From assembly GCA_030430205.1 (NCBI GenBank), contig JAUIGE010000034.1:1-64000 (forward strand): DNA of 64,000 bases. The letters are read 5' to 3'. The notes under the pieces are model-generated. The model saw only the letters and a list, made by a program, of their open reading frames with translations. It did not search any database and had not been told where the DNA came from. This DNA comes from Bacteroidia bacterium (GTDB taxonomy: Bacteria; Bacteroidota; Bacteroidia; J057). Shown piece after piece: positions 9,396-56,384 of this stretch (its first letter is position 1; the number at the start of each line of letters is the position of its first letter). The translations under genes were made by a program, and so were the position numbers.

Positions 9396-10109
9396 ATGAA
9401 AGAACAACATATTAAATGGCATTCGCAGTGGATTTCAAGAGAGTTTGAAATGCTGGTCTTTGGTGACCGCGGATACCCACTTATTATTTTTCCAACTACT
9501 GCTGGTCAGTATTATGAAGCTAGAAATTTCCTGTTGGTTGAATCTATCCGCTGGTATGTAGAGCAGGGATTGGTTCAGGTATTTTGCCCCGATGGCATGA
9601 ATCAGGAAAGCTGGTATAACAAAGGCATTCACCCTGCCGATAAAGTACGCACACACAATGCCTACGAAAATGTCATCCTTCATGACATCGTAGAGAAAGT
9701 ACGCTGGAATACAGGTGCCGGTAAGGTAGCTGTGGCAGGTTGTAGCTTTGGCGGTTTTCAGGCAGCCAACTTTGCCTTCCGTCACCCAGGTATTGTAAGT
9801 CACCTTTTCAGCCTCAGTGGCGCTTTTGATATCCGCTCATTTATGAATGGATATTATGACCAGAATACCTATTTCAATAATCCTACAGACTTTCTGCCTG
9901 GCCTCAATGATGGCAGCCTCTGGCAGATGGATATCGTTTTGGGAGCCGGTGAGCATGACATCTGTCGTGCAGACAGCGAGCAGCTTTCGGGCATTTTGCG
10001 TGCAAAAAATGTTAAACACTGGTTGGACATTCGTCCCAATCAGGTGCATGACTGGCCGCTTTGGCGGGATCAGTTGCCGCATTATTTGTCTCGCATCAAT
10101 TTTAATTAA
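9396..10109 (+). CDS. Esterase-type alpha/beta hydrolase (first gene of ligase operon)
   Basis: 237 residues, cytoplasmic. It resembles the esterase/S-formylglutathione-hydrolase-like group. A nucleophile elbow GCSFGG places Ser117. The likely acid is Asp188 (GAGEHD) and the likely His is 218 (NQVHDWPLW), in the right order for a catalytic triad. The segment PLIIFPTTAGQYYE and FCPDGMNQESWY would form the oxyanion and substrate side. It is the first of four same-strand genes (gap 44 bp to the next) that include two ATP-grasp ligases and an amidotransferase. I infer that it hydrolyses an ester or amide of the pathway product or precursor. The substrate is unknown. Confidence 0.85.
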   Translation: MKEQHIKWHSQWISREFEMLVFGDRGYPLIIFPTTAGQYYEARNFLLVESIRWYVEQGLVQVFCPDGMNQESWYNKGIHPADKVRTHNAYENVILHDIVEKVRWNTGAGKVAVAGCSFGGFQAANFAFRHPGIVSHLFSLSGAFDIRSFMNGYYDQNTYFNNPTDFLPGLNDGSLWQMDIVLGAGEHDICRADSEQLSGILRAKNVKHWLDIRPNQVHDWPLWRDQLPHYLSRINFN

Positions 10110-10153
10110 GCGGGAATTTTTACCTCAATTTTAGACTATAAAACCTAGACATA

Positions 10154-11263
10154 ATGAAAAAAATTGGCATCTTATTCGGAAGAGAAAAGACCTTCCCACC
10201 TGCATTGGTGGATCGCATCAACAGCAAAAATGTAAAAGGCATCATGGCTGAGCCTGTGCAGATCGACAGAGTCGTACAAGGCGAAAGCTGTGGCTACGCT
10301 GTGATCCTGGACCGCATCTCTCAGGATGTACCTTTTTACCGCTCTATGCTCAAGAATGCAGCCGGTACAGGTACTGCCGTCATCAACAACCCATTTTGGT
10401 GGAGTGCTGATGAGAAATTTTTCAATAACGTATTGATGACAAAAATCGGCGTTCCAGTGCCGAAAACTGTCCTTTTGCCTTCTAACGCTCGTCCTGACGA
10501 CACCACTGAGGAGTCTTTCCGCAACCTCATGATGCCGATGGCATGGCCTGAGATGATCGAGTATATCGGCGGATTTCCTGCCTATATGAAGCCTCACTCC
10601 GGTGGAGGATGGAAGTCAGTGTACAAACTGGAAAGCATGGAAGAGCTGTTTGAAAAACATCGTGAGACGGGCCAGCTCGTCATGATGTTGCAGGAAAACA
10701 TCGACTTCACCGATTACTTCCGTTGCTACTGCATCGGCCAGAAGCATGTACACATCATGCCATATGAGCCTCGCAACCACTTCCACGAGCGTTATTTGCC
10801 TAAAACAGAAGCTGATTACCCCAAAGAGCAGATGGATCTCGTGCGCGAGACCGTGCTGAAAATCAACAAAGCGCTGGGCTATGACTTCAATACAGTAGAG
10901 CTTGCTTTCCGCAATGGTGTGCCTTATGCCATTGATTTTTGCAATCCTGCACCTGATGCTGATGATTTTTCCGTTGGTCCTGTTAACTTTGAGTGGGTGG
11001 TCGAAAATATGGCCAACTACCTGATCGAGCGCGCTCAGGCTCATGATGCTAAAAAGAACAATCTGAGCTGGGGTGAGTTTGTGAAAGGTGCTGTGGCTGA
11101 AACCACACCCAAAGCAAAAAGCACACAGAAAAAAGCAGCAGCTCCCGTGAAGAAGACAACCACAACCGCAAAGAAACCCGCAGCTACAGCTAAGAAGCCT
11201 GCGGCTTCTGCGAAGAAGGCGGCTTCTCCAGCGAAGAAAGCACCTGCTGCAAAAACCAAATAA
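10154..11263 (+). CDS. RimK-like ATP-grasp ligase with Lys/Ala-rich histone-H1-like tail
   Basis: 369 residues. Residues 1-~300 look like an ATP-grasp amide/peptide ligase: an N-terminal Rossmann-like domain (MKKIGILFGREKTFPPAL), NNPFWWSADEKFFNNVLMTKIGVPVPKT (typical pre-ATP-grasp segment), YMKPHSGGGWKSVYKL (Lys and Gly-rich loop for ATP), LQENIDFTDYFRCYCIG, and NTVELAFRNGVPYAIDFCNPAPDAD with the Mg-binding acidic/Asn residues. Residues 317-369 form a low-complexity tail of Lys, Ala, Pro and Thr (16 Lys in 53 residues; repeated AKKPA units), like histone H1 or bacterial H1-like proteins. The stop is 4 nt before the amidotransferase start. Activity inferred: ATP-dependent carboxylate-amine ligation; substrate unknown. 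Confidence 0.85.
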   Translation: MKKIGILFGREKTFPPALVDRINSKNVKGIMAEPVQIDRVVQGESCGYAVILDRISQDVPFYRSMLKNAAGTGTAVINNPFWWSADEKFFNNVLMTKIGVPVPKTVLLPSNARPDDTTEESFRNLMMPMAWPEMIEYIGGFPAYMKPHSGGGWKSVYKLESMEELFEKHRETGQLVMMLQENIDFTDYFRCYCIGQKHVHIMPYEPRNHFHERYLPKTEADYPKEQMDLVRETVLKINKALGYDFNTVELAFRNGVPYAIDFCNPAPDADDFSVGPVNFEWVVENMANYLIERAQAHDAKKNNLSWGEFVKGAVAETTPKAKSTQKKAAAPVKKTTTTAKKPAATAKKPAASAKKAASPAKKAPAAKTK

Positions 11264-11267
11264 GTTT

Positions 11268-12092
11268 ATGCAAAGATACCGGCTTGCCATTCTGGATATG
11301 AATAATGATGTGCCCAACCAGGGCATGCGCTGCATCAAAGAAATCGCCAACGATCACCTGGATCGCCTGGATTGGGACACTTTTGATGTGCGTGCAAAAG
11401 GAGAGGTGCCTGGCACCGATTATGACATCTACATATCAAGTGGCGGGCCGGGTAATCCATTGGATGGGGATGGCGACTGGGACAAACGCTACTATGCGCT
11501 GCTGGATGCACTTTGGGCATATAACCAAAACCCTGCAAACAAGCGCAAGAAGTACGTTTTTTTCATTTGCCATTCCTACCAGATGGCTTGTCAGCACTTT
11601 GGTGTTGGGAAAATTTTTCCAAGAGGGAGCCGCTCTTTTGGGGTGATGCCGGTCTTTAAGACTGAGGCCGGGAGGCAGGAGGAGTTGCTCGAAGCTTTAG
11701 GAGACCCGCTCTATGCGGTGGATGTGCGGGATTTTCAAATCCTGGAGCCCAATGAGGAGAGGCTCGAAGAGATGGGCGCTTCTATACTGGCTATCGAGCA
11801 GGAGCGCGAAAAGCCCAATTTGCCCCGCGCGATCATGGTCGTGCGCTTTTCCAATGAATTTTTTGGAACCCAGTTCCACCCCGAAGCTGATGCCGATGGC
11901 ATGAGCCGTTATTATCAATTGCCCGAAAAACGCAAGGAAACCATAGACACCTATGGAGAGGCGAAATACAACGAAATCATTGAGCACCTCAATGACCCCG
12001 ATAAGGTAGAACTTACCCGAAAAACGCTGATCCCTTCTTTTATCCTGCAAGCTATCTACGCATGGGATAGCATCCTTTCTCCAACCATTTAA
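11268..12092 (+). CDS. Class I glutamine amidotransferase-like protein
   Basis: 274 residues, a stand-alone GATase-1 domain as in GMP synthase or CobB/HisH relatives. The oxyanion segment ISSGGPGNP is at 57-64, the nucleophile is Cys101 in FFICHSYQMA, and His204/Glu206 in QFHPEAD complete the triad. It would release ammonia from glutamine, or act as a related gamma-glutamyl peptidase. The C-terminal ~60 residues (YYQLPEKRKETIDTYGEAKYNEIIEHL) extend past the normal fold. The 4-nt and 24-bp spacings to the flanking ligase genes argue for one operon and a shared pathway, perhaps supplying ammonia to one ligase. Confidence 0.88.
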   Translation: MQRYRLAILDMNNDVPNQGMRCIKEIANDHLDRLDWDTFDVRAKGEVPGTDYDIYISSGGPGNPLDGDGDWDKRYYALLDALWAYNQNPANKRKKYVFFICHSYQMACQHFGVGKIFPRGSRSFGVMPVFKTEAGRQEELLEALGDPLYAVDVRDFQILEPNEERLEEMGASILAIEQEREKPNLPRAIMVVRFSNEFFGTQFHPEADADGMSRYYQLPEKRKETIDTYGEAKYNEIIEHLNDPDKVELTRKTLIPSFILQAIYAWDSILSPTI

Positions 12093-12116
12093 TTTCTCCT
12101 CAACCAACTTCTCTCC

Positions 12117-13316
12117 ATGAAGCAAGACATCCGGAAGGCCTTCAATGAATTTTTCACTGAAGAAAAATACCAGGCCTTTATGCACGATTTGAATACGCAT
12201 TTTGACCACAAGATCAACTTTCGCGTAGCAGAAACGCCCATTTTTATCGAAAATGCCTTCAAGGAAAAGCTGATGAAAGCTTCTGCTGACATCAAGGCGT
12301 TTTTGGTGCGTCCTGATCTCAAAGAGATCACCAAAGATGCCGTGCCGGCCCGGTACAATGTGCCTGCAGAAAATGAGCATCCGCTCTTTATCGTGGTGGA
12401 CTTCGCAGTCTGCGAAGGAGAAGATGGGGAATTGATTCCCCAAATGATTGAGTTTCAGGGATGTCCATCCCTTTATTGCTACCAGGATTGGGTAGCTGCC
12501 AAGTACCGGAAGCATTTTCCGGTGATTCCGGAAAGCGCCAATCACCTCGCCAACAAGCTCGACTCCGAGCGCTATATCAACATCCTCAAAGAGGCTATCC
12601 TGGGCAACCAGCCTGTGGAGAATACCATTTTGCTGGAAATCGACCCCAGCAGCCAGAATACCTCCATTGACTTCTTTTGTCATGAGGAAAAAATAGGCAT
12701 CAAGGCCGTATGTCTCACCGACATCATCAAGGAAGACCGCAAGCTGTTTTATATGCGGGAAGGCGTGAAAACGCCGATTCACCGGATTTATAACCGCACC
12801 ATTTTTGATGACCTGATCCAGCGTACGGATCTCAATCCGGACTTCAAATTGACACAGGATGTAGATGTGGAGTGGGCAGGCCATCCCAACTGGTTTTTCC
12901 GCATCAGCAAATACACCATGCCTTTTATTGATAGCCCCTATGTGCCGAAAACGGAATTTTTGCATGAAATAAAGGAGATTCCTGCGGACCTGGAAAATTA
13001 TGTGCTGAAGCCTTTGTTTTCCTTTGCAGGAAGCGGGGTGATCTTCGATGTGACCCGGGAAGATATCGATAACATTCCGATGGAATCCCGTTCTGATTAT
13101 ATTTTGCAGAAAAAAGTCACCTATGCGCCCGTTGTGCAGGCTCCTGATGGCCTGGTGAAATGCGAACTTCGCTTGCTTTACGTCTGGCCGGAAGGCAGAG
13201 ATGCACCCATGCTGGTGACCAATCTTGCCCGCCTCAGCAGGGGAAAATTAATTGGGGTGAAATACAACAAAGACAAAACCTGGGTAGGAGGAAGCGTCTG
13301 CTTCTTTGAATCCTAA
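12117..13316 (+). CDS. Circularly permuted ATP-grasp-like ligase (glutathionylspermidine-synthase-like)
   Basis: 399 residues. I infer a permuted ATP-grasp fold from the order of C-terminal motifs: NYVLKPLFSFAGSGVIFDV (296-312; Lys298 and a Gly loop), YILQKKVTYAPVV (328-340), VKCELRLLYVW (347-357) and LARLSRGKLIGVKYNKDKTWVGGSV (370-394). These parallel the VLKP..G.GG, IAQ, RPF and N..GG.KDTWV blocks of permuted ATP-grasp enzymes. The N-terminal half (QMIEFQGCPSLYCYQDW) is unlike families I can name. It is the last gene of the 9396 operon. Its TAA overlaps the stop codon of the convergent gene. Confidence 0.75.
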   Translation: MKQDIRKAFNEFFTEEKYQAFMHDLNTHFDHKINFRVAETPIFIENAFKEKLMKASADIKAFLVRPDLKEITKDAVPARYNVPAENEHPLFIVVDFAVCEGEDGELIPQMIEFQGCPSLYCYQDWVAAKYRKHFPVIPESANHLANKLDSERYINILKEAILGNQPVENTILLEIDPSSQNTSIDFFCHEEKIGIKAVCLTDIIKEDRKLFYMREGVKTPIHRIYNRTIFDDLIQRTDLNPDFKLTQDVDVEWAGHPNWFFRISKYTMPFIDSPYVPKTEFLHEIKEIPADLENYVLKPLFSFAGSGVIFDVTREDIDNIPMESRSDYILQKKVTYAPVVQAPDGLVKCELRLLYVWPEGRDAPMLVTNLARLSRGKLIGVKYNKDKTWVGGSVCFFES

Positions 13317-16911: not shown

Positions 16912-17928
16912 ATGGCATTTCTTTCCTATCGAAATTTGAAAATCCTTATCCAGTTGGCCTTCTGGCTGGGATATATCACCATTGCTACCCTTGTTTTTTC
17001 CATGGTTGTGCCACCTCAGTGGGCATTGATGCGCACCCTGATGATGGCTTCAGTTCACATCTTGCTGGTCTATTTCCACCTTTATTTTATCTTGCCTCGC
17101 TTTTTTGACAAAAAGAAATACCTCCAATATGGGGCCTTGCTGGCTGTATCGCTGACAATAGCGGTGCTATTGAAGTCCGCAGGCGACCGCCTGCTGATCG
17201 AATGGTCGGACCTCAACGGGCCGCTGGCCCGCTATAAAGATGGGAATGTGCCCATCCTCTCAGGTCTGGTGGCAGACCTGGTCTTTTTGTTTATCACAAC
17301 GCCTGTGCGTTGGATGGACGAGTTTTACAAGCGCAAAGCGCTTCAGGAGCGCTTTCAGACTCATCGGCTTGCAGCCGAGCTCAAATTTCTCAAAACACAG
17401 GTAAACCCCCACTTTCTCTTCAATACCCTCAACAACCTCTACAGCCTGGCCTATACAGGCTCCGAAAAGACGGCGCCCATGATCCTCAAGCTTTCTGAAA
17501 TGATGCGCTATATGCTTTATGAAAGCGATGCAGAACAGGTGCCTCTGGACAAAGAAATCCAATACATCCAGAATTATATTCAGCTTCAGCAACTCAAAAC
17601 AGAAGAGGAACAACAAATCATTTTTGAAGTCCTCGGAGAAACCGCAGGCCTGCAACTTCCGCCCATGTTATTTGTACCACTTGTAGAAAATGCCTTCAAA
17701 CATGGTAATTTGGAGGAAAATGGCTGGCTAAAAGCTAAAATAGAAGTGGAAGATAAACGGCTGATATTCAGCATCCACAATTCCTTCCGACCCCATCAGC
17801 AAAAGGATCCCGTCGGCGGAATCGGCCTCGAAAATGTGCGAAAACGCTTGCAGCTTCTTTTTCCCGAAAAGCATGAATTTAATGTGGAAGAAAAGGACGG
17901 AGTCTTTGGTGTGAGGCTTATTTTGTAG
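16912..17928 (+). CDS. LytS-family sensor histidine kinase
   Basis: 338 residues from the ATG at 16912. The TTG at 16870 lies inside the terminator stem and is rejected. The N-terminal ~130 residues contain about four membrane helices (LKILIQLAFWLGYITIA, LMMASVHILLVYFHLYFIL, GALLAVSLTIAVLL, VADLVFLFITT). A coiled linker leads to a His_kinase domain with QVNPHFLFNTLNNL (phospho-acceptor His167), then an ATPase part with LVENAFKHG and GGIGLENVRKRL. Its partner is the LytTR regulator at 18071. The intergenic gap consists almost entirely of a heptamer array, so the pair is probably one operon. Confidence 0.93.
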   Translation: MAFLSYRNLKILIQLAFWLGYITIATLVFSMVVPPQWALMRTLMMASVHILLVYFHLYFILPRFFDKKKYLQYGALLAVSLTIAVLLKSAGDRLLIEWSDLNGPLARYKDGNVPILSGLVADLVFLFITTPVRWMDEFYKRKALQERFQTHRLAAELKFLKTQVNPHFLFNTLNNLYSLAYTGSEKTAPMILKLSEMMRYMLYESDAEQVPLDKEIQYIQNYIQLQQLKTEEEQQIIFEVLGETAGLQLPPMLFVPLVENAFKHGNLEENGWLKAKIEVEDKRLIFSIHNSFRPHQQKDPVGGIGLENVRKRLQLLFPEKHEFNVEEKDGVFGVRLIL

Positions 17929-17930
17929 AG

Positions 17931-18070
17931 AGGCGAGAGGCGAGAGGCGAGAGGCGAGAGTAGAGAGTAGAGAGTAGAGAGTAGAGAGGCGAGACCTGGA
18001 CCCGAAACCCGAAACCCGAAACCCGAAACCCAAAACCCAAAACCCAAAACCCAAAACCCAAAACAAAAAA
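17931..18070. repeat. Heptanucleotide array between kinase and LytTR regulator
   Basis: Twenty consecutive 7-nt units keep one phase up to the ATG at 18071: AGGCGAG x4, AGTAGAG x4, AGGCGAG, ACCTGGA, CCCGAAA x4, CCCAAAA x5, CAAAAAA. It begins two bases after the kinase stop codon. Copy number should be prone to slippage. It lies where the ribosome-binding region of the regulator must be, so it could affect translation. Confidence 0.95.
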
Positions 18071-18778
18071 ATGCGCTGTATAATAGTTGATGACGAACAC
18101 CTGGCCCGCAAGCTGCTTAGCACCTATCTCAGCAAGATACCTGAGATAGAAGTTGTAGGGCAGGCAAAAAATGCCATGGAGGCATTGAGTCTGCTGGAAA
18201 AAGAGCAGGTGGACCTGCTTTTTCTGGACATCCAGATGCCCGATCTGACGGGCCTGGAATTGCTTCGGACCTTGCCAAAGGCACCTTTTGTGGTTTTTAC
18301 CACTGCTTACTCCACGCATGCTGTGGAGGGTTTTGAGCTGGATGCGGTCGATTATCTGGTGAAACCCGTTTCATTTGAGCGCTTTGTACAGGCGGTGAAT
18401 AAAGTCCGGGAACGCATGAAGTTAGCTGCTGGCCAGCAGCTTGCTCCTGCTCCGGTAGAAGCGGAGAAAGATCATTTCTTTGTGAAAGTGGATTACAAAC
18501 TGGTGAAGGTGATGTTTGAACATATTCACTATATCGAAGGCATGCGTGAGTATGTGGCCATTCACACACCCGCAAAGCGGCTGATCGTCTATCAGTCCAT
18601 GAAAAACCTGGCAGATATACTGGCCTCGCGCCAATTTTTCCGCATCCACAAGTCCTATATCGTCTCTCTCAATCATATCGAGAGCGTCTACGGCAATGTG
18701 GTACAAATCGCAGGCAAAGAGCTGCCGATAGGCAAAAGTTATAAGGATGCATTTATGGATCGCCTCGAAATGCTATAG
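18071..18778 (+). CDS. LytTR-family response regulator
   Basis: 235 residues. The receiver domain at ~1-120 has the acidic pocket VDDEH (7-10), phospho-acceptor Asp53 (LFLDIQMPD), Thr77 (FTTAY) and Lys98 (YLVKPVS). A linker follows, then a LytTR DNA-binding domain at ~140-232 (FFVKVDYKLVKVMFEHIHYIEGMREYVAIHT, FFRIHKSYIVSLNHIESV, LPIGKSYKDAF). It is paired with the upstream LytS-type kinase. The start directly follows the heptamer array and has no Shine-Dalgarno sequence. Confidence 0.95.
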   Translation: MRCIIVDDEHLARKLLSTYLSKIPEIEVVGQAKNAMEALSLLEKEQVDLLFLDIQMPDLTGLELLRTLPKAPFVVFTTAYSTHAVEGFELDAVDYLVKPVSFERFVQAVNKVRERMKLAAGQQLAPAPVEAEKDHFFVKVDYKLVKVMFEHIHYIEGMREYVAIHTPAKRLIVYQSMKNLADILASRQFFRIHKSYIVSLNHIESVYGNVVQIAGKELPIGKSYKDAFMDRLEML

Positions 18779-28513: not shown

Positions 28514-31500
28514 ATGATGCTGTGGCTATCCCTTAGCGCCGCTGCCCGTTACATCCTGTTGTCTTTTCGCATGAGCCTCCTGCTGGTGGCTTTGATGTTG
28601 GGCACCTATGCGGCAAACGCACAAATCGTTTCCAATTTTTCGGCAAATAATACCTCTGGCTGTAGTCCTCTGACAGTCCAGTTTATCAATCAATCCAGCG
28701 GACCGATCTCCAGTTATTACTGGAATTTTGGGAATGGAAATACTTCCAATCAACCCAATCCAGGGGTGATCTATGTCAATCCCGGCACCTATACGGTGCG
28801 CTTGCGGGTGACAGATGGCCTGTCTTCGGATACACTGATCCGCACAGCTTATATCACCGTTTTTGCTGAACCTACAGCTAATTTTACAGGCTCCCCGACG
28901 CTGGGATGCACGCCCCAATTCACCAATTTTCAGGATATGTCCACGACAGGCAGCGCGCCTATTTCCAGTTTTTCCTGGGACTTCGGGGATGGCTCGCTCG
29001 GAAGTGGCGCTTTGCCGCCGCATCTTTACAGCAGTAGCGGCTCCTTTGATGTGACTCTGGTGGTGACAGACACCAATGGGTGTACAGACAATATCCGGAA
29101 GGATAATTTTGTCACCCTCACAGACAGTCCTACTGTCAATATGAACATCACAGCGCTCAATAGCTGCCAGCTCCCGATCAACTATTCTTTTGTTTCCCCC
29201 AATCCCTTGCAGGGACATAGCTATGTTTGGGAGTTTGGGGATGGTACCACCGCCTCCGGTCCCAATGCACAGCACAGCTATACCGTCAATGGACAATATA
29301 CCGCCAAACTGACGGTTACGGGAGGAAATGGCTGTACCAGTGTGCTCACACAAACGCTTTTTATCAACCCTTCTCCTCCCACTGCCAACTTCAATACCTT
29401 AGGGAATGAATTCTGCTGGGGGGTACCCATCCAATTTGCCAATACTTCCAGCAATGCTGTCAGCTATACCTGGTATTTTGGAGATGGAACGAGCAGCACA
29501 GCTGTTTTTCCTACCCATACCTACGCCTTGCCGGGGATATACTCCGTCACACTGATTGCCCGCGATGGCATATGCAGTGACACCCTCATCCGTAACAACT
29601 ATCTTACTATCAAACCCGCACCCAATGCAGCCTTTACCTCCCAAGGGAGGTTGGGTTGCGGGCTGCCTTTGGTGGTTGATTTTCAGGCCGATACGACCTA
29701 TGCTACCAGCTTCCTCTGGAATTTTGGTGATACCTCTTTTGCTACCGTGCCCAACCCTACGCATGTCTACCAATACGAGGGATTCTTTGATGTGACCCTG
29801 GTGGTGCAAAGTGCTGATGGCTGCCGCGATTCGGTGACTTTTCCGAATTATACCCAGGTCATCCCGCCTACGGCGGATTTTATCGCTGACACGCTCAGAG
29901 GCTGCGCGCCCCTTGTCGTGGACTTCCTCGACCTCAGCGTCTCGACAGCAGATCCTATCGTAAACTGGATTTGGGATTTTGGAGATGGAGGCACCTATTG
30001 GGGGCGAAATGCTACCCACATGTACACAAACGCAGGTTTGTATGATGTGCGCCTGGTGGTCGTCACCCAGTCAGGTTGCCGGGATACTGTGATTTACAAA
30101 GACCTGATCGGGGTAGGAAATGTGCCCAATGTGAGTTTTGGGGCGAATGTGTTTGGTGGTAGCGGTGTGGTTGGCGGCGGTGCGCCGCTGGTGATATGCC
30201 CTTCGGATTCGGTCTTTTTTACCAACCAGACAGGAGCAGGAACAGCATGGCTTTGGGATTTTGGAAATGGGAATGTTTCCAGTTATCAGAATCCGAGCTA
30301 TTTGTTTACAGATACAGGCAGCTTTGATATTTCCTTAACGGTGGATCACTATGGCTGTCAGGCCACTTTTGGCTGGCCGGGGGGGATATCTGTGGTAGGG
30401 CCTTTGGCAGATTTTAATGTCTTTCCGGATTTGGGTTGCGGGCTGCCTTTTAGCACTCAATTTACAGATCAGTCGGTGGGTGCACATCACTGGCAGTGGA
30501 GTTTCGGAGACGGAACCACCGATACCATCCCGAGCCCTTCCCATACCTACAATGCCCCAGGCAGTTTTGTGGTATCTCTGACGGTCTTGAATGACAATAC
30601 CCATTGTGACCATACATGGCGTGATACCGTACATGTGCAACCCATGTCCGCTGCTTTTACAGCCAGCATTTCGGGCAGTTGTAACGGTGCGACCGCTACT
30701 TTTACCAATATTTCTACCAATGCTACCGACTTTTGGTGGGATTTTGGTGATGGCGCAAATAGCAACCAGGCCAATCCCACGCATGTGTACCAAAATCCGG
30801 GAACCTATTCGGTCAGCCTGATTGCCAGAAATGCAGCGGGTTGTGCCGATACCATGCTCCAGCCCAGCATCGTAACGGTCAATGGCCCGGTGGTGGATTT
30901 TGTCGGAGATGTTACCCTGGGTTGTGTGCCGCTTTCGGTGAATTTTACCGACCTGTCAAGCAGTTCTGCTCCCATCACCAACTGGTTGTGGGAATATGGT
31001 ACGGGAGGCACTTCCTCTTCTCAAAACCCCTCCAAGGTATTCACCAACAAAGGATTATCCTTTGTCAGGCTGACGGTAACGGATGCCAATGGCTGTTCAG
31101 CAGTTTTGACAAAACCCGCTTACATCAATGCAACCCAGCCCAATTCGGGTTTTTATGCACCGACCACTACGGGCTGCGCCAATCAGCCTATTTCGCTGAT
31201 CAACCTATCGGGGAGTGGTAATTTGACTTACCTCTGGCAGTTTGGCGACGGAGATACTTCTACCGTAAAAAATCCTATTCATACCTATGCCTCCAATGGC
31301 AACTATACCGTGACCCTGACTACCTATGATCAAAACGGTTGTGCCAACACCTTTGCCCGCCCCAACTACATCAAACTCACCGGCCCTGCCGTCAATTTTT
31401 TTGCTTCGCCCACCCAAAAAGCCTGCCCGCCCCTGACGGTCAATTTTCAGGATCTGTCCAGCAATGATGCCATCAGCTGGTATTGGGATTTTGGGGATGG

Positions 31501-34500
31501 AACACATTCGGTTTTGGCGAATCCTTCCAAGATTTACACTTTTCCCGGAATGTATACCGTCAGGCTGGCTGTGATGAATGCCGCAGGCTGCACAGACACC
31601 CTGACCATGCCAGACCTGATAGACATATCCGGCCCTTCGGGCACCTTCAATTTCTTCCCCAAATCGGGCTGTAGCCCGCTGGATGTCACCTTTATCGCCG
31701 ATGCGCCTACGGCCATCAACTGGACCTGGGACTTCGGGGATGGCAGCCTCGGGGCTGGAGATACGGTGACCCATACTTTTTATGATGATACCGTAGCTAC
31801 ACCGGTTTTGGTGGTGGAAGACCTGGCAGGTTGTGTCGTGGCGATCACGGTAGATGATAGCGTGAATGTCACGGCAGGGCCGGACGCTGGTTTCCGGACA
31901 AATCGTCCGGCTGTCTGCCTGGGGCAAAGCATACAATTTTTTGATACTTCCTATTCAGAAGTACCGCTGATCGCGCATTTTTGGGACTTTGGCGATGGCA
32001 ATACTTCTACTTTGCCCAATCCTACCCATACCTATGCAGCCGCAGGCTCCTATCCCATCAAGCTCAAAGTGGTCAATGTAAACGGCTGTAGTGACAGCCT
32101 GATCAGCTCGCTCCCCCTGGTGGTGAGTCCACCACCGACGGCTCAATTTCTCCTCCAGCCGCCCGGCGGCTGTGTGCCCTTCAGCCTCACGCTGAGCGAT
32201 AGCTCCATCACGACCTTTCCCATTGTACAATGGAACTGGAAGTTTGGCGATGGCACCACCGCCAGCAATGTGCCCTTTGTAGGGCATACCTACAGCACCC
32301 CCGGCAGCTACCAGCTGCAACTCAAGGTAAGAGATGCCCAGGGCTGTGTCGACAGCACCCAGAGGACGCTGGACGTCTCCTTTGGGCCTACGCCCAATTT
32401 CACTGCCAACAGCCTCACAGGCTGTGCGCCCAAACTCATTCAGTTTACTGACCTGAGTGCTTCCAATCAGCCCATTGCGGGCTGGTTCTGGGACTTTGGG
32501 GATGGAACGACTTCCACTTTGCGCAGCCCGCAATATAGCTACACCGCCAACGGAACCTATACCGTCAGCCTGACTGTAACAGATATAAACGGTTGTGCCA
32601 AAACCGAAACCAAGCCTCAATACATTCAGCTACAGAATCCGATCGCAGACTTTATATCAGACACAACAGGAGGATGTCCACCCTTTCCGGTGACTTTCAC
32701 CCATACCTCCAATTCAAACAGCCCTATTGCTTCATTCTTTTGGGATTTTGGGGATGGAACGACTTCTTCACAGGAGAATCCATCGCATACCTACTCCTAT
32801 GCAGACACTTTTGCTGTTAGACTCATCATTGTGAATGGTCAGGGATGTCGTGATACAGTGGCCTATCCACAAGCCATCGTTGCTTATGCAAAGCCGATAG
32901 CGAATTTTTCCCTTTCGGATAATTCGCTTTGCCTGCCTGAAGGCCTGACGGTAAACAATACCAGCATGCCCGGTTCTTCGCCTATTGCTTCCTTCGCGTA
33001 TAATTTTGGCAATGGAACCACCTCCAGCAACCCGATGGCTTCGGCCCAGTACACGACTCCCGGCCTTTTTAACATCAAACTGAAAGTGACGGATTTTTAC
33101 GGATGTAAAGATTCGGTGACCAAGCAGATCGTAGCCCAGAATGGGCCTGTGGCTAATTTCAGGGCCAATGACAGCCTGGGTTGTGGGGCACAAAGTTTTA
33201 CTTTTTACGACCTGAGTGGAGGCAGCCAGGCCACTTCCTGGTTGTGGAGTTTTGGGGATGGAACGACTTCCAGTCAGGCACAACCCACACATCCTTATAC
33301 TGCCTCCGGCAATTTTGATGTGAAATTAAAAATCACCGACGCCAATGGCTGTTCCGATAGCTTGCGCAAGCCCAACTACATCCAATTGGATGGGCCACAG
33401 GCTGCTTTTTCCGTTAACCAAACGGCTTCCTGCGCCAGCGCTACTTTGGCTTTTACCGATAATTCCTATGCAGATACCACCCTGACGAGCTGGGCATGGA
33501 CATTTGGTGACGGGCAGACCGCTACGGGCCAAAATGTTTCCCATACCTACAGCAGCGGAGGTGTTTATGCCGTCAAACTCACCATCACCAATGTGATCGG
33601 CTGTAGCAGTACTTTTATAGATACCATTCAGGCGAATACTTCTTCGCCCGTTGCTTATTTCGGCTTGCCGGATACCCTCTGCGCACCTGTGGTGCTGAAT
33701 CTGCGCGACAGCTCGCGGATAGGAGGCGCGCCCATCGTCATTTGGGATTGGGACCTCGACAACGGCAATACCGCTAATACACCCAATCCGGTGGTGAATT
33801 TCTTCACCCAGGGCAACTATTCTCTGCGTTTGCAAATCATAGACAACAATGGCTGTACCGATAGTTTGCGGAGAAATATCGTGGTGAAAACGCCACCCAC
33901 CGCCAATTTCGCCACCAGCGACACCAACGGCTGCGCGCTGAATGCCATCAGTTTTACGGATTTCTCCGCAGGGAGCGCCCCCATCAGGAGTTGGCTTTGG
34001 AATTTTGGAAATGGTGATACCAGCCATCAGCAAAATCCAGCCTATAGCTATTCGCAGGGCGGGAGCTATGATGTGAGGCTTACAGTGAAGGATGAAAATG
34101 GCTGTTCGGGAACCATCCTGCGAAAGGATTTGCTGAGCATGCAGGCGCCTTTGGCGGATTTTACGCTGGATGATGATGAAGGATGCAAAGGCCTGACGAT
34201 TCATTTCAACGATCTCAGCCAGACAGATACGACCCTTGTTAGCTGGTTTTGGGAATTTGGCGACAGCCTGACTTCTACGCAGCGCCATCCAAGCCATCGC
34301 TTCAGTGAGCCGGGCACCTATACCGTTCGACTGACCATCATGGACGCCATCGGCTGCGGAGCCATAGCCGAAAAGCGGGATACCATCCGGATTTTTGATG
34401 GCCCAGATGCCAAAATGGGCCTTTCTGATACGGTGGGCTGTCGCCCCCTGATTGTCACTTTCCGTGATAGCTCTAGCAGCAGCACCGGTTTTGGTGGACG

Positions 34501-37500
34501 CATGTGGAAATTTGGATCTATAGGAACGACCTCTTTGCCCAATCCCACCCGCGCTTTTACCAATCCCGGAAACTATCCTATCCGCCTGCTTATCACCGAT
34601 GCCAACGGCTGTCAGGATAGTGTGGTCAAAAATCTGGAAGTTTTTGGCCCGCCGCAGGTGGACTTCTCTGCCAGCGACTCGCAGGCATGTGCCGCCACTT
34701 CGATCCAGTTTCTGGATCAGACACAAAGCCAGGCCAATCTGGTCTACTGGCGCTGGGACCTGGGCGATGGCACAAGCTCCCAGCAGCAATTTCCCCAGCA
34801 CACCTACGCCAGCAATGGCGCATATAATGTGAAGCTATTCGTGAGAGACGAATTTGGCTGCCGGGACAGCCTTACGAAATTTCAATTTGTTCAAATACAG
34901 CCTGCATTGGCCGATTTTACCCTGAATAATGCAAGAGGATGTACGGGGGTAAATGCTATTTTTTCGGACCAGAGTTTTGGAAATGGAGGGGTAACCAACT
35001 GGCTTTGGAACTTTGGTGACGGCACCACTTCTACCCAGGCCAATCCCGGCCATAGCTACAACCAGCCCGGTACTTATACCGTGAGCCTTTCGATTTTGGA
35101 TGCGGCGGGTTGCATAGATTCTGTGCGAAAAGTGGACACCGTCCAGGTCCTTCGCTCCCCTGTAGCGAACTTCGGCCTCTCCGACACAGCGGGCTGTGCG
35201 CCCATGATCGTGCAATTCACAGACATGTCTGTGGGAACCGATGCCGGCATTGCCGGCTGGAACTGGCGCTTTGGCACCGGCTCACCCAATCTGAGCCAAC
35301 ATCCTACGCAGTTTTTTGCGAATGCAGGGCGTTATGGCATCACGCTGACCGCTACCGACAGCAACGGCTGTCCCCATTCGCAGGTCAAATACCTGCGGGT
35401 ATATGACAAACCTCAGGCGGCTTTTGCCGCCAGTGACAGCATCGGCTGCGCCAGCAAAACAGTGAACTTCTACGATCAGTCACAAAGCCAGTCAGGGCTT
35501 CGGAATTGGCGCTGGGATTTTGGCGATGGAGGCAGCTCCACCCAGGCATATCCGCTCTATACCTTTCAAAATAATGGCTATTTCGATGTTAAATTGCTGG
35601 TAGCAGACAGATTTGGCTGTGAAGACAGCCTGGTCAAAAGGCAATACATCCGTCTGCAACCGCCAGTGGCTGATTTTGCCCTTTCTACTACCGCTGGCTG
35701 TACGGGTACAGCTGTCGCATTTACCGACAAAAGTACCTCAGATACGACTTTCAGCACCTACCTCTGGGATTTTGGGGATGGAAATATTTCTACAGCAGCT
35801 AATCCTTCTCATACATATCAAACGCCAGGCGTTTATTCGCTCCGCCTGACGGTAACAGACGCCAAAGGCTGTTCGGATACGGAGGTTTTGCCCAATGCGA
35901 TCAGCATTTCTGCGGGCCCTGTGGTAAATTATCAGCTTTCGGATACTGCCGGCTGTACGCCTCTGTTGGTACAATTTACGGATCAGTCCAGTGCCCTGGC
36001 GGGTATCCGCACCTGGCGGTGGAGCATGGGAAATGGCGGCATCGCCGCCGGCCCCAACCCGATGCGGGTTTACAGCAATCCGGGCCGCTATCAGGTGGTC
36101 CTGACGGTGACTGACAGCATCGGCTGTCAAAGTGCCCTGAGCAGGGAGGTCAATGTCTATGCGCCGCCTGCGGCGGATTTTACGGCTGATGACAGCCTGG
36201 GCTGTGCTGCCAGGCAGATCCATTTCTTTGATCTCTCTGCCAGCCAGTCTGGCCTGACGAGCTGGCAGTGGGACTTTGGCGACGGCAGCAGCTCCACCCA
36301 GCAATTTCCCAATCACATCTACCAGAATAATGGCGATTATGATGTCAAGCTGATCGTAACAGACCGCTTTGGCTGTTCTGATCTCCTGCTCAAGCGGGAA
36401 TACATCCGCCTCGATGCGCCTGATGCCGCTTTTAGCCTCAACCAAAACCAGGGATGTACGGGCCTGAATGTTGCTTTTAGGGACCTGAGCCTCAGCGATA
36501 CAACCATCGTTTCCTGGCATTGGGACTTTGGGGATGGCAGCACTTCGGGCAGAGCCAATCCGACGCATTACTTCGGTAATTCGGGTGTTTACAGCATTTC
36601 CCTCACCGTGGTTGATGCGAAAGGATGCAGTGATACGCACATATTGCCCAATGGCATTTCGATCAGCCGGGGTCCCTCGGTGGACTTTTCGCTATCCGAT
36701 ACCATGGGCTGTGCGCCCATGATCGTGCAGCTGACAGACCTGTCCAGCTCGATCACAGGCATACAAACGCGCAATTGGCGCTTTAGCAATGGCGGCATCG
36801 CCGGGGGAAGTGGCCCCATGCGGGCGTTCAATACGCCCGGAAGCTATCAGGTTTACCTGACGGTGACGGATAGCAGCGGCTGTGTAGACAGCCTGAGCAA
36901 AAACCTGCAGGTTTTTCCGCCGCCCCTGGCAGATTTTGATGCCACGGACACCTCCGGCTGTTCGCCCAAAGTCGTCAACTTCCTTGACCTCTCTTCCAGC
37001 CAGGCAGGCATCACAAGCTGGCATTGGGACTTTGGTACGGGAGATACCTCTATTGCCCAGTTTCCTACCTATGTTTTTTCGCAGAATGGCCAATACCATG
37101 TCACGCTCAGGGTGACCGATCGCTTTGGCTGTGAAGATCAACTTATCAAAAGACAGTTCATCAATTTAAAGCCCCCGATAGCAGATTTTAACCTGAATCA
37201 GGCTCGTGGTTGTCAGGGATTGCCGGTCAGTTTTTCGGACCAAAGTTCTTCTGACACCACGATCCTTGCCTGGTTCTGGGATTTTGGGGACAATGCCACT
37301 TCTACCCAGCGAAATCCTTCGCATATTTATCAAACAGCAGGAACATATACCGTCAGCCTGACGATCACCGATGCGAAAGGCTGTAGTGAAACGGTCTCAA
37401 AAATCGATACGATTGAGGTGTTTGCACCGCCAGTGGCGGCGATAGCTATGTCGGACACGGCAGGCTGTCGCCCCTTGCTGGTGCAATTGGCAGATCAGTC

Positions 37501-40333
37501 CAGCGGCGCCGCTGCGATCACCCAATGGAGTTGGAATTTGGGCAACCAAAGCAGCTCTGTATTGGCTGCGCCCAATTATACCTTTGCCCAAAGTGGCCTT
37601 TTTAGCATAGACCTCACGGTCACAGATGCGAACGGCTGTACAGCTCTGACCCGCAGGCCTTTGGAAGTCTACGACCTGCCACAGGCGGCATTTTATGCGC
37701 CCGATACCATCGGCTGTGCGCCTGAAGCACTGAACTTTCTGAATGCCTCCTCGGGTCCCCGACCGCTGACGAGCTGGCAATGGCGCTTTGGAGATGGCGG
37801 AACGGCCAGCATTCCACAGCCTTCGCATACCTACCAGCAGGCAGGCCGCTATACGGTTTCTCTCAAAGTGACCGATCAGAAAGGCTGCACGGACAGCCTG
37901 CGCAGGCCTGCTTATATCCGGCTGAGCGATCCTCAGGCAGCTTTTAGCATAGATACGCTGATCGCCTGTCCCGGCACAAGCATCAGCTTGCGTGATGGCT
38001 CCGGCAGTGACACAACCCTGACAAATTGGACATGGGACTTCGGAGATGGAAGCGCCTGGGCCCATGGCCCGAACCCGAATCACCGCTACGCACAGGCAGG
38101 CAACTATACGATCCGTCTTCGGGTGACCGATGCCCTGGGATGTACCGATAGCATGTCAGCACCTGCTCCTGTACAGGTACTGACTCCGCCGCTAGCGGCA
38201 TATCAGGGCTTGCAGGCTGGCTGTGAGCCTTTGCTCGGCAGCTATCAGGATCGCAGCACAAACGCTGCCAATTGGCAGTGGTACCTTGATGGCGTCGCCA
38301 ATGGCGGCGGCCAGCAGATCAACCATTTATTTGCTGTAGCAGATACCTATCAACTGGCTTTGGTAGTTACGGATCAAATGGGTTGTACAGATACAGCAGA
38401 AAAATCAATAGTTGTTCATCCCCTGCCTACTGCCAACTTTTCTTCCCTGGACACTGTCTCCTGTGCCCCGGATTTCGTCCGTTTCCGAGACAGGAGTTCT
38501 GCGAATGCCAGCAGCTGGCTTTGGAAATTTGGCGATGGCCAAAGCTCTACTTTGCCCCATCCCGTGCATAGCTATTTGAAGGACGGAAGCTATACCGTGC
38601 GCCTGAAAGTGACGACAGCCTTTGGCTGTGTGGATAGCAGCGTGCGCTTTGGATATGTGAACATGCGGCATCCCAAAGCCGATTTTGTAGCTGATTTTGA
38701 TCAGCCTTGCGCGCCGCTTTCTGTGGATTTTCGCTCCCAGGCGATCATAGATACAGGCATAGATGACTGGTTTTGGATATTTGGCGATGGCACGACCGGA
38801 AGCGGCAATCCCGCTTCGCATACCTACTACGATCCGGGCGTGTACAGCGTCAGCCTGGTAGTGACCGATTCTATCGGTTGTCAGGATACGGTGCGTTATC
38901 CGGATTTACTCAGGCTAAAGGAAAATGCCATGATTCCGGCACCTGTGGTGCATCGTGTGACCGTGCAGCGGGACGACCAGGTAGATATTGTTTTTCAGCA
39001 AAGCAGGCACACTGATTTTGCGGAATATGTGATTTACCGCGAATGGCCACAGGCTTCAGGAACATTTATAGAAATTCACCGAACAAGCTTTGCTGATGAT
39101 ACCCTCTATACAGACTATGGGCTGGATATCGGTATCCTGAATTGTTTGGAAAATACCTATTGCTACAAAGTGACAGTCGTCAATGATTGTGGGACGGAGA
39201 CGCCGCTTTTACAGGCGCGCAGCCATTGTACCATAGAGGCTACGGCCGTGGCGATGCCAGACAGGATGTTGTTGGATTGGAATGCCTATAAAGGCTGGGA
39301 TGTGGCATTTTATGAAATTTACCGCGTAGGCAGCTATGACCTCGGATCGGTAGACTATGTGGATAGGGTGCCGGGGCAGAGCCTGCAATACATAGACCGC
39401 TCAGCCCGCTGTAGCAACATCTACACCTACCGCATCAAAGCCATCGGCTTTGCCGATCAGCAATACTCCTGGAGCGACACCACCCGCGCCCGCAACAGCC
39501 GCACGGCTGATCTCGATCCGAACGAAGTCGTTCGGGCCACCGTCGAAAACAACCGCAGCGTGCTCGCCGAATGGCTGCCTGTCACCATGCAGGACCTGAC
39601 GACCATCGTCCTGGAGCGCCGCTCCATCGAGTATCCTGAGTGGACAGCAGTGGCCCTGCTGGAGCCGGGAGACAACTCTTATCTGGACCATGACGTGGCC
39701 GTGAACCGGGAATCCTATTCCTACCGCATCACGGCGCGTGATAGCTGCGGTTTCCTCTCCGAGATCAGCAATATGGGCAAAAGCATTTTGCTCAAGCCGG
39801 GTCCTACGAACCAAAAGCATCTGCTTAGCTGGTCGGCCTATGAAGGCTGGGGGCAGGGCGTAGACTACTACGAGCTCGAAGTCTACAACGACTTCACGCA
39901 GAGCTGGGAGTTGGTGGACATCGTTCCAGACGATACACTTTCCTATAATGTGAGCGAGATCTATCTTGACCAGCCGCAATATTGCTTCCGCATCCGGGCG
40001 CATGAGTCAGGCGGCCATCAGGCGCTGAGCCTTTCCAACGAAGTGTGTATCCCTGTGCAGCCCGAGATTTTCGCGCCCAACGCTTTTACGCCCAACAGCG
40101 ACGGCTACAATGATGAGTTCTACCTGAAAGGCGTTTTTATCGATAGATTTCACCTGATGATCTTCGATCGCTGGGGCAAGAAAATCTTCGAGAGCAGCGA
40201 CCTCGACCAGGGCTGGGACGGCATGTACAAAGGCCAGGCCGCTGTGGAAGGAGTGTACACCTTTGTGGCCAGAGGCATTGGCTATGACAATTTACAGCAT
40301 GAGATCAGTGGGACGGTGACGCTGATCAGGTAG
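28514..40333 (+). CDS. Giant PKD-repeat adhesin-like protein, T9SS type B cargo
   Basis: 3939 residues. The signal peptide region ends at YAANAQ; an ATG at 28571 is an alternative start. By counting W.W.FG.G cores I find about 41 PKD-type units of ~85 residues from residue ~38 to ~3470. Nearly all begin 'F....GC.P..V.F.D.S'. Then come fibronectin-like segments (HRVTVQRDDQVDIVFQQSR, VRATVENNRSVLAEWLPV, ISNMGKSILLK) and a CHU_C/gliding C-terminal domain (FTPNSDGYNDEFYLKG, IFDRWGKKIFESSD, WDGMYKGQ) for T9SS export. Units 21-38 repeat in blocks of three. Conserved Cys pairs and Asp-rich loops suggest disulphide or Ca2+ stabilisation. Likely role: adhesion or gliding; not proven. Confidence 0.93.
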   Translation: MMLWLSLSAAARYILLSFRMSLLLVALMLGTYAANAQIVSNFSANNTSGCSPLTVQFINQSSGPISSYYWNFGNGNTSNQPNPGVIYVNPGTYTVRLRVTDGLSSDTLIRTAYITVFAEPTANFTGSPTLGCTPQFTNFQDMSTTGSAPISSFSWDFGDGSLGSGALPPHLYSSSGSFDVTLVVTDTNGCTDNIRKDNFVTLTDSPTVNMNITALNSCQLPINYSFVSPNPLQGHSYVWEFGDGTTASGPNAQHSYTVNGQYTAKLTVTGGNGCTSVLTQTLFINPSPPTANFNTLGNEFCWGVPIQFANTSSNAVSYTWYFGDGTSSTAVFPTHTYALPGIYSVTLIARDGICSDTLIRNNYLTIKPAPNAAFTSQGRLGCGLPLVVDFQADTTYATSFLWNFGDTSFATVPNPTHVYQYEGFFDVTLVVQSADGCRDSVTFPNYTQVIPPTADFIADTLRGCAPLVVDFLDLSVSTADPIVNWIWDFGDGGTYWGRNATHMYTNAGLYDVRLVVVTQSGCRDTVIYKDLIGVGNVPNVSFGANVFGGSGVVGGGAPLVICPSDSVFFTNQTGAGTAWLWDFGNGNVSSYQNPSYLFTDTGSFDISLTVDHYGCQATFGWPGGISVVGPLADFNVFPDLGCGLPFSTQFTDQSVGAHHWQWSFGDGTTDTIPSPSHTYNAPGSFVVSLTVLNDNTHCDHTWRDTVHVQPMSAAFTASISGSCNGATATFTNISTNATDFWWDFGDGANSNQANPTHVYQNPGTYSVSLIARNAAGCADTMLQPSIVTVNGPVVDFVGDVTLGCVPLSVNFTDLSSSSAPITNWLWEYGTGGTSSSQNPSKVFTNKGLSFVRLTVTDANGCSAVLTKPAYINATQPNSGFYAPTTTGCANQPISLINLSGSGNLTYLWQFGDGDTSTVKNPIHTYASNGNYTVTLTTYDQNGCANTFARPNYIKLTGPAVNFFASPTQKACPPLTVNFQDLSSNDAISWYWDFGDGTHSVLANPSKIYTFPGMYTVRLAVMNAAGCTDTLTMPDLIDISGPSGTFNFFPKSGCSPLDVTFIADAPTAINWTWDFGDGSLGAGDTVTHTFYDDTVATPVLVVEDLAGCVVAITVDDSVNVTAGPDAGFRTNRPAVCLGQSIQFFDTSYSEVPLIAHFWDFGDGNTSTLPNPTHTYAAAGSYPIKLKVVNVNGCSDSLISSLPLVVSPPPTAQFLLQPPGGCVPFSLTLSDSSITTFPIVQWNWKFGDGTTASNVPFVGHTYSTPGSYQLQLKVRDAQGCVDSTQRTLDVSFGPTPNFTANSLTGCAPKLIQFTDLSASNQPIAGWFWDFGDGTTSTLRSPQYSYTANGTYTVSLTVTDINGCAKTETKPQYIQLQNPIADFISDTTGGCPPFPVTFTHTSNSNSPIASFFWDFGDGTTSSQENPSHTYSYADTFAVRLIIVNGQGCRDTVAYPQAIVAYAKPIANFSLSDNSLCLPEGLTVNNTSMPGSSPIASFAYNFGNGTTSSNPMASAQYTTPGLFNIKLKVTDFYGCKDSVTKQIVAQNGPVANFRANDSLGCGAQSFTFYDLSGGSQATSWLWSFGDGTTSSQAQPTHPYTASGNFDVKLKITDANGCSDSLRKPNYIQLDGPQAAFSVNQTASCASATLAFTDNSYADTTLTSWAWTFGDGQTATGQNVSHTYSSGGVYAVKLTITNVIGCSSTFIDTIQANTSSPVAYFGLPDTLCAPVVLNLRDSSRIGGAPIVIWDWDLDNGNTANTPNPVVNFFTQGNYSLRLQIIDNNGCTDSLRRNIVVKTPPTANFATSDTNGCALNAISFTDFSAGSAPIRSWLWNFGNGDTSHQQNPAYSYSQGGSYDVRLTVKDENGCSGTILRKDLLSMQAPLADFTLDDDEGCKGLTIHFNDLSQTDTTLVSWFWEFGDSLTSTQRHPSHRFSEPGTYTVRLTIMDAIGCGAIAEKRDTIRIFDGPDAKMGLSDTVGCRPLIVTFRDSSSSSTGFGGRMWKFGSIGTTSLPNPTRAFTNPGNYPIRLLITDANGCQDSVVKNLEVFGPPQVDFSASDSQACAATSIQFLDQTQSQANLVYWRWDLGDGTSSQQQFPQHTYASNGAYNVKLFVRDEFGCRDSLTKFQFVQIQPALADFTLNNARGCTGVNAIFSDQSFGNGGVTNWLWNFGDGTTSTQANPGHSYNQPGTYTVSLSILDAAGCIDSVRKVDTVQVLRSPVANFGLSDTAGCAPMIVQFTDMSVGTDAGIAGWNWRFGTGSPNLSQHPTQFFANAGRYGITLTATDSNGCPHSQVKYLRVYDKPQAAFAASDSIGCASKTVNFYDQSQSQSGLRNWRWDFGDGGSSTQAYPLYTFQNNGYFDVKLLVADRFGCEDSLVKRQYIRLQPPVADFALSTTAGCTGTAVAFTDKSTSDTTFSTYLWDFGDGNISTAANPSHTYQTPGVYSLRLTVTDAKGCSDTEVLPNAISISAGPVVNYQLSDTAGCTPLLVQFTDQSSALAGIRTWRWSMGNGGIAAGPNPMRVYSNPGRYQVVLTVTDSIGCQSALSREVNVYAPPAADFTADDSLGCAARQIHFFDLSASQSGLTSWQWDFGDGSSSTQQFPNHIYQNNGDYDVKLIVTDRFGCSDLLLKREYIRLDAPDAAFSLNQNQGCTGLNVAFRDLSLSDTTIVSWHWDFGDGSTSGRANPTHYFGNSGVYSISLTVVDAKGCSDTHILPNGISISRGPSVDFSLSDTMGCAPMIVQLTDLSSSITGIQTRNWRFSNGGIAGGSGPMRAFNTPGSYQVYLTVTDSSGCVDSLSKNLQVFPPPLADFDATDTSGCSPKVVNFLDLSSSQAGITSWHWDFGTGDTSIAQFPTYVFSQNGQYHVTLRVTDRFGCEDQLIKRQFINLKPPIADFNLNQARGCQGLPVSFSDQSSSDTTILAWFWDFGDNATSTQRNPSHIYQTAGTYTVSLTITDAKGCSETVSKIDTIEVFAPPVAAIAMSDTAGCRPLLVQLADQSSGAAAITQWSWNLGNQSSSVLAAPNYTFAQSGLFSIDLTVTDANGCTALTRRPLEVYDLPQAAFYAPDTIGCAPEALNFLNASSGPRPLTSWQWRFGDGGTASIPQPSHTYQQAGRYTVSLKVTDQKGCTDSLRRPAYIRLSDPQAAFSIDTLIACPGTSISLRDGSGSDTTLTNWTWDFGDGSAWAHGPNPNHRYAQAGNYTIRLRVTDALGCTDSMSAPAPVQVLTPPLAAYQGLQAGCEPLLGSYQDRSTNAANWQWYLDGVANGGGQQINHLFAVADTYQLALVVTDQMGCTDTAEKSIVVHPLPTANFSSLDTVSCAPDFVRFRDRSSANASSWLWKFGDGQSSTLPHPVHSYLKDGSYTVRLKVTTAFGCVDSSVRFGYVNMRHPKADFVADFDQPCAPLSVDFRSQAIIDTGIDDWFWIFGDGTTGSGNPASHTYYDPGVYSVSLVVTDSIGCQDTVRYPDLLRLKENAMIPAPVVHRVTVQRDDQVDIVFQQSRHTDFAEYVIYREWPQASGTFIEIHRTSFADDTLYTDYGLDIGILNCLENTYCYKVTVVNDCGTETPLLQARSHCTIEATAVAMPDRMLLDWNAYKGWDVAFYEIYRVGSYDLGSVDYVDRVPGQSLQYIDRSARCSNIYTYRIKAIGFADQQYSWSDTTRARNSRTADLDPNEVVRATVENNRSVLAEWLPVTMQDLTTIVLERRSIEYPEWTAVALLEPGDNSYLDHDVAVNRESYSYRITARDSCGFLSEISNMGKSILLKPGPTNQKHLLSWSAYEGWGQGVDYYELEVYNDFTQSWELVDIVPDDTLSYNVSEIYLDQPQYCFRIRAHESGGHQALSLSNEVCIPVQPEIFAPNAFTPNSDGYNDEFYLKGVFIDRFHLMIFDRWGKKIFESSDLDQGWDGMYKGQAAVEGVYTFVARGIGYDNLQHEISGTVTLIR
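33650..38190 (+). repeat. Six tandem three-domain blocks inside the giant PKD gene
   Basis: PKD units 21-38 cycle A-B-C. A units begin 'LSDT.GC.P..VQ.TD.S', B units '.DS.GCA...V.F.D.S.SQ.G', C units 'L....GC.G..V.F.D.S.SDTT'. A units start near 33655, 34402, 35165, 35921, 36680 and 37430, spacings of 747-763 bp. This marks expansion of a ~755-bp, three-domain unit by tandem duplication. Confidence 0.8.
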
Positions 40334-53162: not shown

Positions 53163-53284
53163 AATTTTTGTTAAAAAAATGGGAGTGTGTGCAAGGAAAG
53201 CCAAGCTTTCAAATGGAAGCGCAAAAGTACAAACAATGTTTAAACTTTAAAACAAGCTTTCAGCTTTTGTGGTTCATCTTCCAA

Positions 53285-53326
53285 CCCAAAACCCAAAACC
53301 CGAAACCCAAAACCCAAAACCCAAAA
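53285..53326. repeat. Heptamer array between yceI-like gene and sdhC
   Basis: Six units in phase: CCCAAAA x2, CCCGAAA, CCCAAAA x3. It lies in the 313-bp divergent gap between the YceI and sdhC promoters, upstream of both -7 boxes. Confidence 0.9.
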
Positions 53327-53385
53327 CATCCCTTTCTTAGAATGGTTATAAATACCATTAGGAAAAAGGAATACTAGAATAGAAA

Positions 53386-56316: not shown

Positions 56317-56317
56317 A

Positions 56318-56373
56318 CCCGAAACCCGAAACCCGAAACTCAAAACTCGAAACTCAAAACTCGAAACCCGAAA
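56318..56373. repeat. Heptamer array between sdhA and sdhB
   Basis: Eight 7-nt units start one base after the sdhA stop: CCCGAAA x3, CTCAAAA, CTCGAAA, CTCAAAA, CTCGAAA, CCCGAAA, then CAAAACT TACC and the sdhB ATG at 56385. The array is within an obligate operon and replaces the usual ribosome-binding region. Confidence 0.93.
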
Positions 56374-56384
56374 CAAAACTTACC

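Follow-up and report, generated by a model that had tools for sequence, protein, structure and literature searches.

The window analysed here is a stretch of 64,000 nucleotides from a Bacteroidia bacterium (positions 1 to 64,000 of contig JAUIGE010000034.1, assembly GCA_030430205.1, forward strand). Between 9396 and 13316 it carries four intact plus-strand genes, which we call est, grA, gat and grB. They form an operon on contig C39, and the Bacteroidota genome as a whole measures 7.24 Mb. An earlier note on this DNA had described four same-strand genes with gaps of 44, 4 and 24 bp, which the coordinates of the open reading frames (ORFs) confirm, and had proposed that the operon makes or attaches a small peptide or amide. 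That such a product is made is still what the evidence favours, but the four genes are only part of the set, as a gene for a GCS2-type ligase is missing and a third ATP-grasp gene, grC, lies elsewhere in the genome. Comparison with 296 Bacteroidota genomes spread over the phylum (loci, genomes and families are coded L, G and f below) shows that the four genes belong to a wider module, of which they represent a trimmed edition and which roughly one in three of the sampled genomes has. The module combines up to four ligases of amide-bond-forming families with up to four types of hydrolase, inherited as a set.

The features of the operon are as follows.

9396..10109, plus strand: est, alpha/beta-hydrolase of the PF00756 esterase family, 237 amino acids (aa), from its PF00756 match and the triad Ser117-Asp188-His218
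10154..11263, plus strand: grA, RimK/ArgX/LysX-like ATP-grasp ligase, 369 aa, from its fold match, with TIGR00768 below cut-off
11075..11260, plus strand: Lys/Ala-rich C-terminal tail of grA, residues 308-369, predicted to be disordered, with a predicted local distance difference test score (pLDDT) of about 40
11264..11267, no strand: 4-bp junction, the site of a GCS2/YbdK-type ligase gene (about 365 codons) in most linked relatives, from neighbourhood comparison
11268..12092, plus strand: gat, class-I glutamine amidotransferase (GATase)-type protein, 274 aa, from PF00117, the triad Cys101-His204-Glu206 and the nucleophile motif C-H-S-F/Y-Q
12117..13316, plus strand: grB, ATP-grasp ligase of the glutathione synthetase/GspS/YgiC fold, 399 aa, without a Pfam family, from an AlphaFold2 model and fold matches

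Two predicted ATP-grasp ligases

By their structural models, grA and grB are ATP-grasp ligases of different branches. The earlier note had read ATP-grasp motifs in the genes starting at 10154 and 12117, and the fold comparisons bear this out, with neither protein placed outside the ATP-grasp folds. The grA model (pLDDT 77, with the Lys-rich tail disordered) matches RimK best (Z 20.6), followed by ArgX (19.6) and LysX (19.1), over residues 2-296. The match to 5zct, at Z 20.6, covers 263 residues with a root-mean-square deviation of 3.2, and puts grA in the RimK/LysX/ArgX type of fold. Identity to RimK, ArgX and LysX in the structural alignments is 15-18%, the NCBIfam model TIGR00768 is matched with E 1e-8 and 34.9 bits, under its curated cut-off of 143.4, and in Pfam there is a sub-threshold match to R2K_2 alone. 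grA thus shares the fold of the RimK/ArgX/LysX family, but differs from its members in its low TIGR00768 score, its frequent Lys-rich tail and the fixed set of genes around it.

The region coding for the tail contains a degenerate 21-bp tandem repeat at 11171-11239. Among 135 grA proteins the tail is at least 40 aa long in at least 34 and shorter than 20 aa in 67, those of the Chitinophagaceae included. The grA of two Saprospiraceae metagenome-assembled genomes (L031:6001-7470 and L040:1332-2831) carries a helix-hairpin-helix-like C-terminal domain after a Lys-rich linker.

One explanation of the module starts from these features. grA would add amino acids to a protein, perhaps a ribosomal one, in the manner of RimK, grB and the hydrolases would build, cap or remove the tag, and the Lys-rich tail would tether grA to RNA or the ribosome. 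RimK is the best fold match of grA, and both the long Lys/Ala-rich tails and the two helix-hairpin-helix-like C-termini would suit such a role. However, many grA proteins have the short tail, and ArgX and LysX, whose substrate in amino-acid synthesis is held on a carrier protein, match grA within 1.5 Z of RimK. Nor did a small tag or substrate gene recur in the neighbourhoods, where the clustering covered ORFs of 90 aa or more. We consider protein or ribosome modification unlikely.

The AlphaFold2 model of grB has a mean pLDDT of 93. It is matched over its whole length by YgiC (VIA Z 25.5, 343 residues), YjfC (25.2), GspS (24.3) and human glutathione synthetase (24.2, 373 residues), and Foldseek agrees on the fold class. 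The conserved residues are K298, which is the ATP-grasp lysine, the glycine-rich loop SFAGxG, Q331, K333, E350, R352 and R372. The whole-length fold together with the lysine and the loop places grB in the glutathione synthetase/GspS/YgiC-YjfC class, although it lacks the fused amidase domain of GspS. Identity to structures of this class is 10-14%, and Pfam returned no family for grB at E values up to 1. Profile comparison by hhalign gave a probability of 79% for YgiC, restricted to 80 columns around the ATP-binding loop, and a negligible 0.5% for GspS. Searching the PDB by sequence brought no useful match for grA, grB or the GATase.

E. coli YgiC is annotated as 'peptide--spermidine ligase', and YgiC and YjfC have been termed peptidylpolyamine synthetases (PMC12568646). 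With such peptide-polyamine ligases as its top fold matches, grB might couple the carboxylate of a peptide to a polyamine or another amine, and the GATase-type protein, acting as PuuD does, might recover the amine by hydrolysing a gamma-glutamyl amide; this would be a variant of peptide or amide synthesis centred on the amine. The E. coli Puu pathway appears to follow the same logic, as it pairs an amide ligase (PuuA) with a class-I GATase-type gamma-glutamyl hydrolase (PuuD). A class-III aminotransferase-like gene lies directly 3' of grB in seven Spirosomataceae loci (L035, L042, L043, L045, L071, L075 and L100), which may be compared with PuuE accompanying PuuD in E. coli. However, the ligases of the module have other folds than that of the Puu pathway, the genes next to the operon include no recurrent amine oxidase or dehydrogenase, and the GATase is only remotely related to PuuD, with negligible profile similarity. 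Glutathione synthetases, which add an amino acid, also score within 1.5 Z for grB. An amine-centred role is, in our judgement, improbable.

The esterase and the amidotransferase-type protein

Both proteins pass the curated cut-offs of their families, est with 30.4 bits against PF00756 (cut-off 22) and gat with 26.9 bits against PF00117 (cut-off 22.8). The catalytic residues that had been reported as intact in the two proteins are invariant among relatives: Ser117, Asp188 and His218 of est across 19 aligned sequences, and Cys101, His204 and Glu206 of gat, with its C-H-S motif, across 23. Class-I amidotransferases normally have C-x-G, with a glycine two residues after the nucleophile. gat departs from this with C-H-S throughout, compared with C-R-G (AICRGLQ) in E. 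coli PuuD.

The GATase was found in 70 genomes, 69 of which also carry grA. The exception, G154, has the order GCS2-GATase-grB (locus L150, contig C60), and a tblastn search of 12.5 kb there found no grA or est. In five linked loci (L124, L129, L143, L160 and L169) the position of the GATase is occupied by an M29 aminopeptidase (PF02073). This operon-type M29 subfamily is found in 6/296 genomes, all six of them with grB and none with the GATase. Since an aminopeptidase takes its place in these six genomes, the GATase may hydrolyse the product of the module and is less likely to donate ammonia.

A module conserved as a set

grA and grB, whose ATP-grasp motifs are retained, occur as a set with the class-I GATase-type protein and the esterase. 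grA is present in 108 of the 296 genomes, GCS2 in 102 and grB in 92, and all three occur together in 83; pairwise Fisher tests, which ignore kinship, give p values from 1e-43 to 1e-52. The gene order, whose conservation the earlier note had wanted checked in related genomes, is conserved far beyond chance. est lies immediately 5' of grA in most linked relatives, and the typical order, es2'-est-grA-GCS2-GATase-grB, which is headed by a second, divergent esterase (es2'), is found exactly in 25 loci.

Within one family the module is patchy. In family f5, whose members cluster with a named Flavobacteriaceae locus on the grB tree, grA, grB, GCS2 and GATase are all found in six genomes, G154 as a seventh has all of them but grA, and 12 listed genomes have none. 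This patchiness means that lifestyle or deep phylogeny alone offers no easy explanation.

The fifth gene of most linked relatives, at the 4-bp junction between grA and gat, encodes a ligase scoring 218 bits with PF04107 and 308.7 bits with TIGR02050 (cut-off 176.4). It shares 29% identity with E. coli YbdK across 333 residues, but it is set in an operon of several ligases. A search for operon-type GCS2 gave no match at 1e-10 anywhere in the source genome. We rejected relocation of the gene within that genome, as the search gave just a distinct GCS2-CBS-like protein on contig C27 (C27:86491-88443, equivalent to L211:940-2892), which has 650 aa, a divergent GCS2 domain and what read like CBS domains. 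Other operons without GCS2 are those of loci labelled Saprospiraceae (L031, L040 and L086) and of family f6 genomes. GCS2 appears to be dispensable for the module, because its presence changes at least four times on the grB tree.

The pairing of a GCS2-family ligase with a glutathione-synthetase fold in the operons of most relatives recalls the plant-type glutathione route, in which gamma-glutamylcysteine ligase is followed by glutathione synthetase, and the module might then make a glutathione-like low-molecular-weight thiol. The PF00756 esterases include S-formylglutathione hydrolase, though the match of es2 is weak. Against a thiol stand the edition of the source genome, which does without GCS2, and the RimK-like ligase and aminopeptidases, which have no place in a glutathione route. 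The bacillithiol synthase BshC also scores over its cut-off in 57 of 57 genomes of the same class, 38 with the module and 19 without. A replacement thiol is unlikely since BshC is there regardless of the module, and we rejected a substitute-thiol role on this ground; a glutathione-like thiol seems to us very improbable.

grC is a third ATP-grasp protein, of 403 aa and with weak Pfam matches only, which we first met next to the operon of family f4. Its gene is present in 66 genomes, every one of which also has grA, and in the source genome it lies on another contig (C67:14244-15428). Among 21 grC loci examined, an es2-type esterase and an M17 leucyl aminopeptidase precede grC in seven, and the M17 gene alone does so in one more. 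The operon of es2-type esterase, M17 and grC recurs in L128, L174, L241, L242, L246, L248 and L249. Family f4 joins everything in one order, es2-M17-grC-est-grA-GCS2-GATase-grB. grC is present in 13 of the 14 module genomes without GCS2 and in 53 of the 90 with it (p 0.016, uncorrected for kinship).

The position of grB can also be filled by another protein. Fifteen genomes have grA and GATase without grB, and 14 of them carry, with grA, a circularly permuted ATP-grasp protein (PF14403/PF04174) that we call X; the fifteenth, G034, was outside the survey of X. X lies between grA and the GATase in 13 of the 14, and in the other (G290) the GATase is on a different contig. X was absent from every fetched locus holding grB. 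The profiles of grB and X match weakly (probability 11%), and we therefore claim no close homology between them.

An amidohydrolase-like gene of 480-508 aa, as read from its sequence, precedes grB in families f25 and f28. We left it out of the module, as grB is unlinked to the other parts there.

Other features of the window

Upstream of the operon, on the minus strand, are genes that by eye read like aroA and proC, and the end of grB is overlapped by 4 bp by a convergent minus-strand gene that reads as unrelated. A scan for sigma-70-type promoters found no more sites than in shuffled sequence, with a model that does not cover Bacteroidota promoters. The gaps of 4-44 bp within the operon are too small for a precursor-peptide gene of the graspetide type of ribosomally synthesised and post-translationally modified peptide; around the operon, the clustering covered ORFs of 90 aa or more.

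Two further ideas were considered and rejected. PADLOC profiles, at E values up to 0.001, matched neither the four operon proteins nor GCS2, which led us to drop anti-phage defence, and grA and grB had no plasmid match, which led us to drop spread on plasmids.

Elsewhere in the window, arrays of 7-bp units (GAGAGGC; ACCCAAA, AACCCAA, AAACCCG) stand at 17928-18064, 53283-53327 and 56315-56374, and the first pair of arrays occupies the gap between an ORF ending at 17928 and one starting at 18071. Positions 28514-40333 encode a protein of 3939 aa that contains about 40 PKD domains as well as a CHU_C domain, a signal for type IX secretion.

Discussion

On balance, the module probably makes a short peptide or amide non-ribosomally and also turns it over. 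The folds of grA and grB point this way, as do the peptide-polyamine ligase role of YgiC and YjfC, the co-occurrence of the genes, the patchiness inside f5, the slot swaps and the joined operon of f4. Each of the ligases grA, grB, grC and, where present, GCS2 would use ATP to activate a carboxylate and then join it to an amino acid or amine, and in this way the peptide or amide would be built up step by step. In genomes with GCS2 the product may bear a gamma-glutamyl group. The edition in the source genome might do without this step, or might use grC or the GCS2-CBS-like protein instead. The GATase-type protein or its M29 replacement, the M17 aminopeptidase and the esterases would hydrolyse or trim the product, which would thus be both made and recovered.

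Several points weigh against this picture. Gene content alone does not separate a free metabolite from a peptide that is attached to a protein. The tails of grA, both the Lys-rich one and the helix-hairpin-helix-like one of two relatives, would suit a protein that binds nucleic acid or the ribosome as well. The GATase might be an ammonia donor and not a hydrolase, and the p values for co-occurrence take no account of how the genomes are related.

The kinds of enzyme in the module are already known, and the gene set as such is apparently undescribed. The earlier note knew of no named pathway with its exact set, and our literature searches agree, as they found no paper naming it among those covered. 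Iyer et al. (2009) reportedly predicted operons that combine ATP-grasp peptide ligases with peptidases. Those sets are of the same general kind, with amidoligases and hydrolases in one neighbourhood. The NAGGN dipeptide osmolyte system of Pseudomonas makes a small peptide amide from one operon, using a class-II amidotransferase, a fusion of acetyltransferase and ATP-grasp, and a peptidase. The likeness is of an amidotransferase-type protein, an ATP-grasp ligase and a peptidase in one operon, but the GATase here is of class I and none of the four proteins had an acetyltransferase match in Pfam or NCBIfam.

The module is thus common, with about one sampled Bacteroidota genome in three having it, yet grB is without a Pfam family. 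The two slot swaps make predictions about function: the GATase and the M29 aminopeptidase should share a substrate, and the bonds formed by grB and by X should be equivalent. It is conceivable, though we would stop short of calling it probable, that environmental Bacteroidota share a widespread metabolite that has been overlooked and has no named pathway. It would be a short peptide or amide that up to four amide ligases assemble without the ribosome and that peptidases and esterases of its own recycle, with two slots whose occupants can be exchanged. If a free peptide or amide is made, a compound common among environmental Bacteroidota would have been overlooked, and the product of the module can now be looked for.

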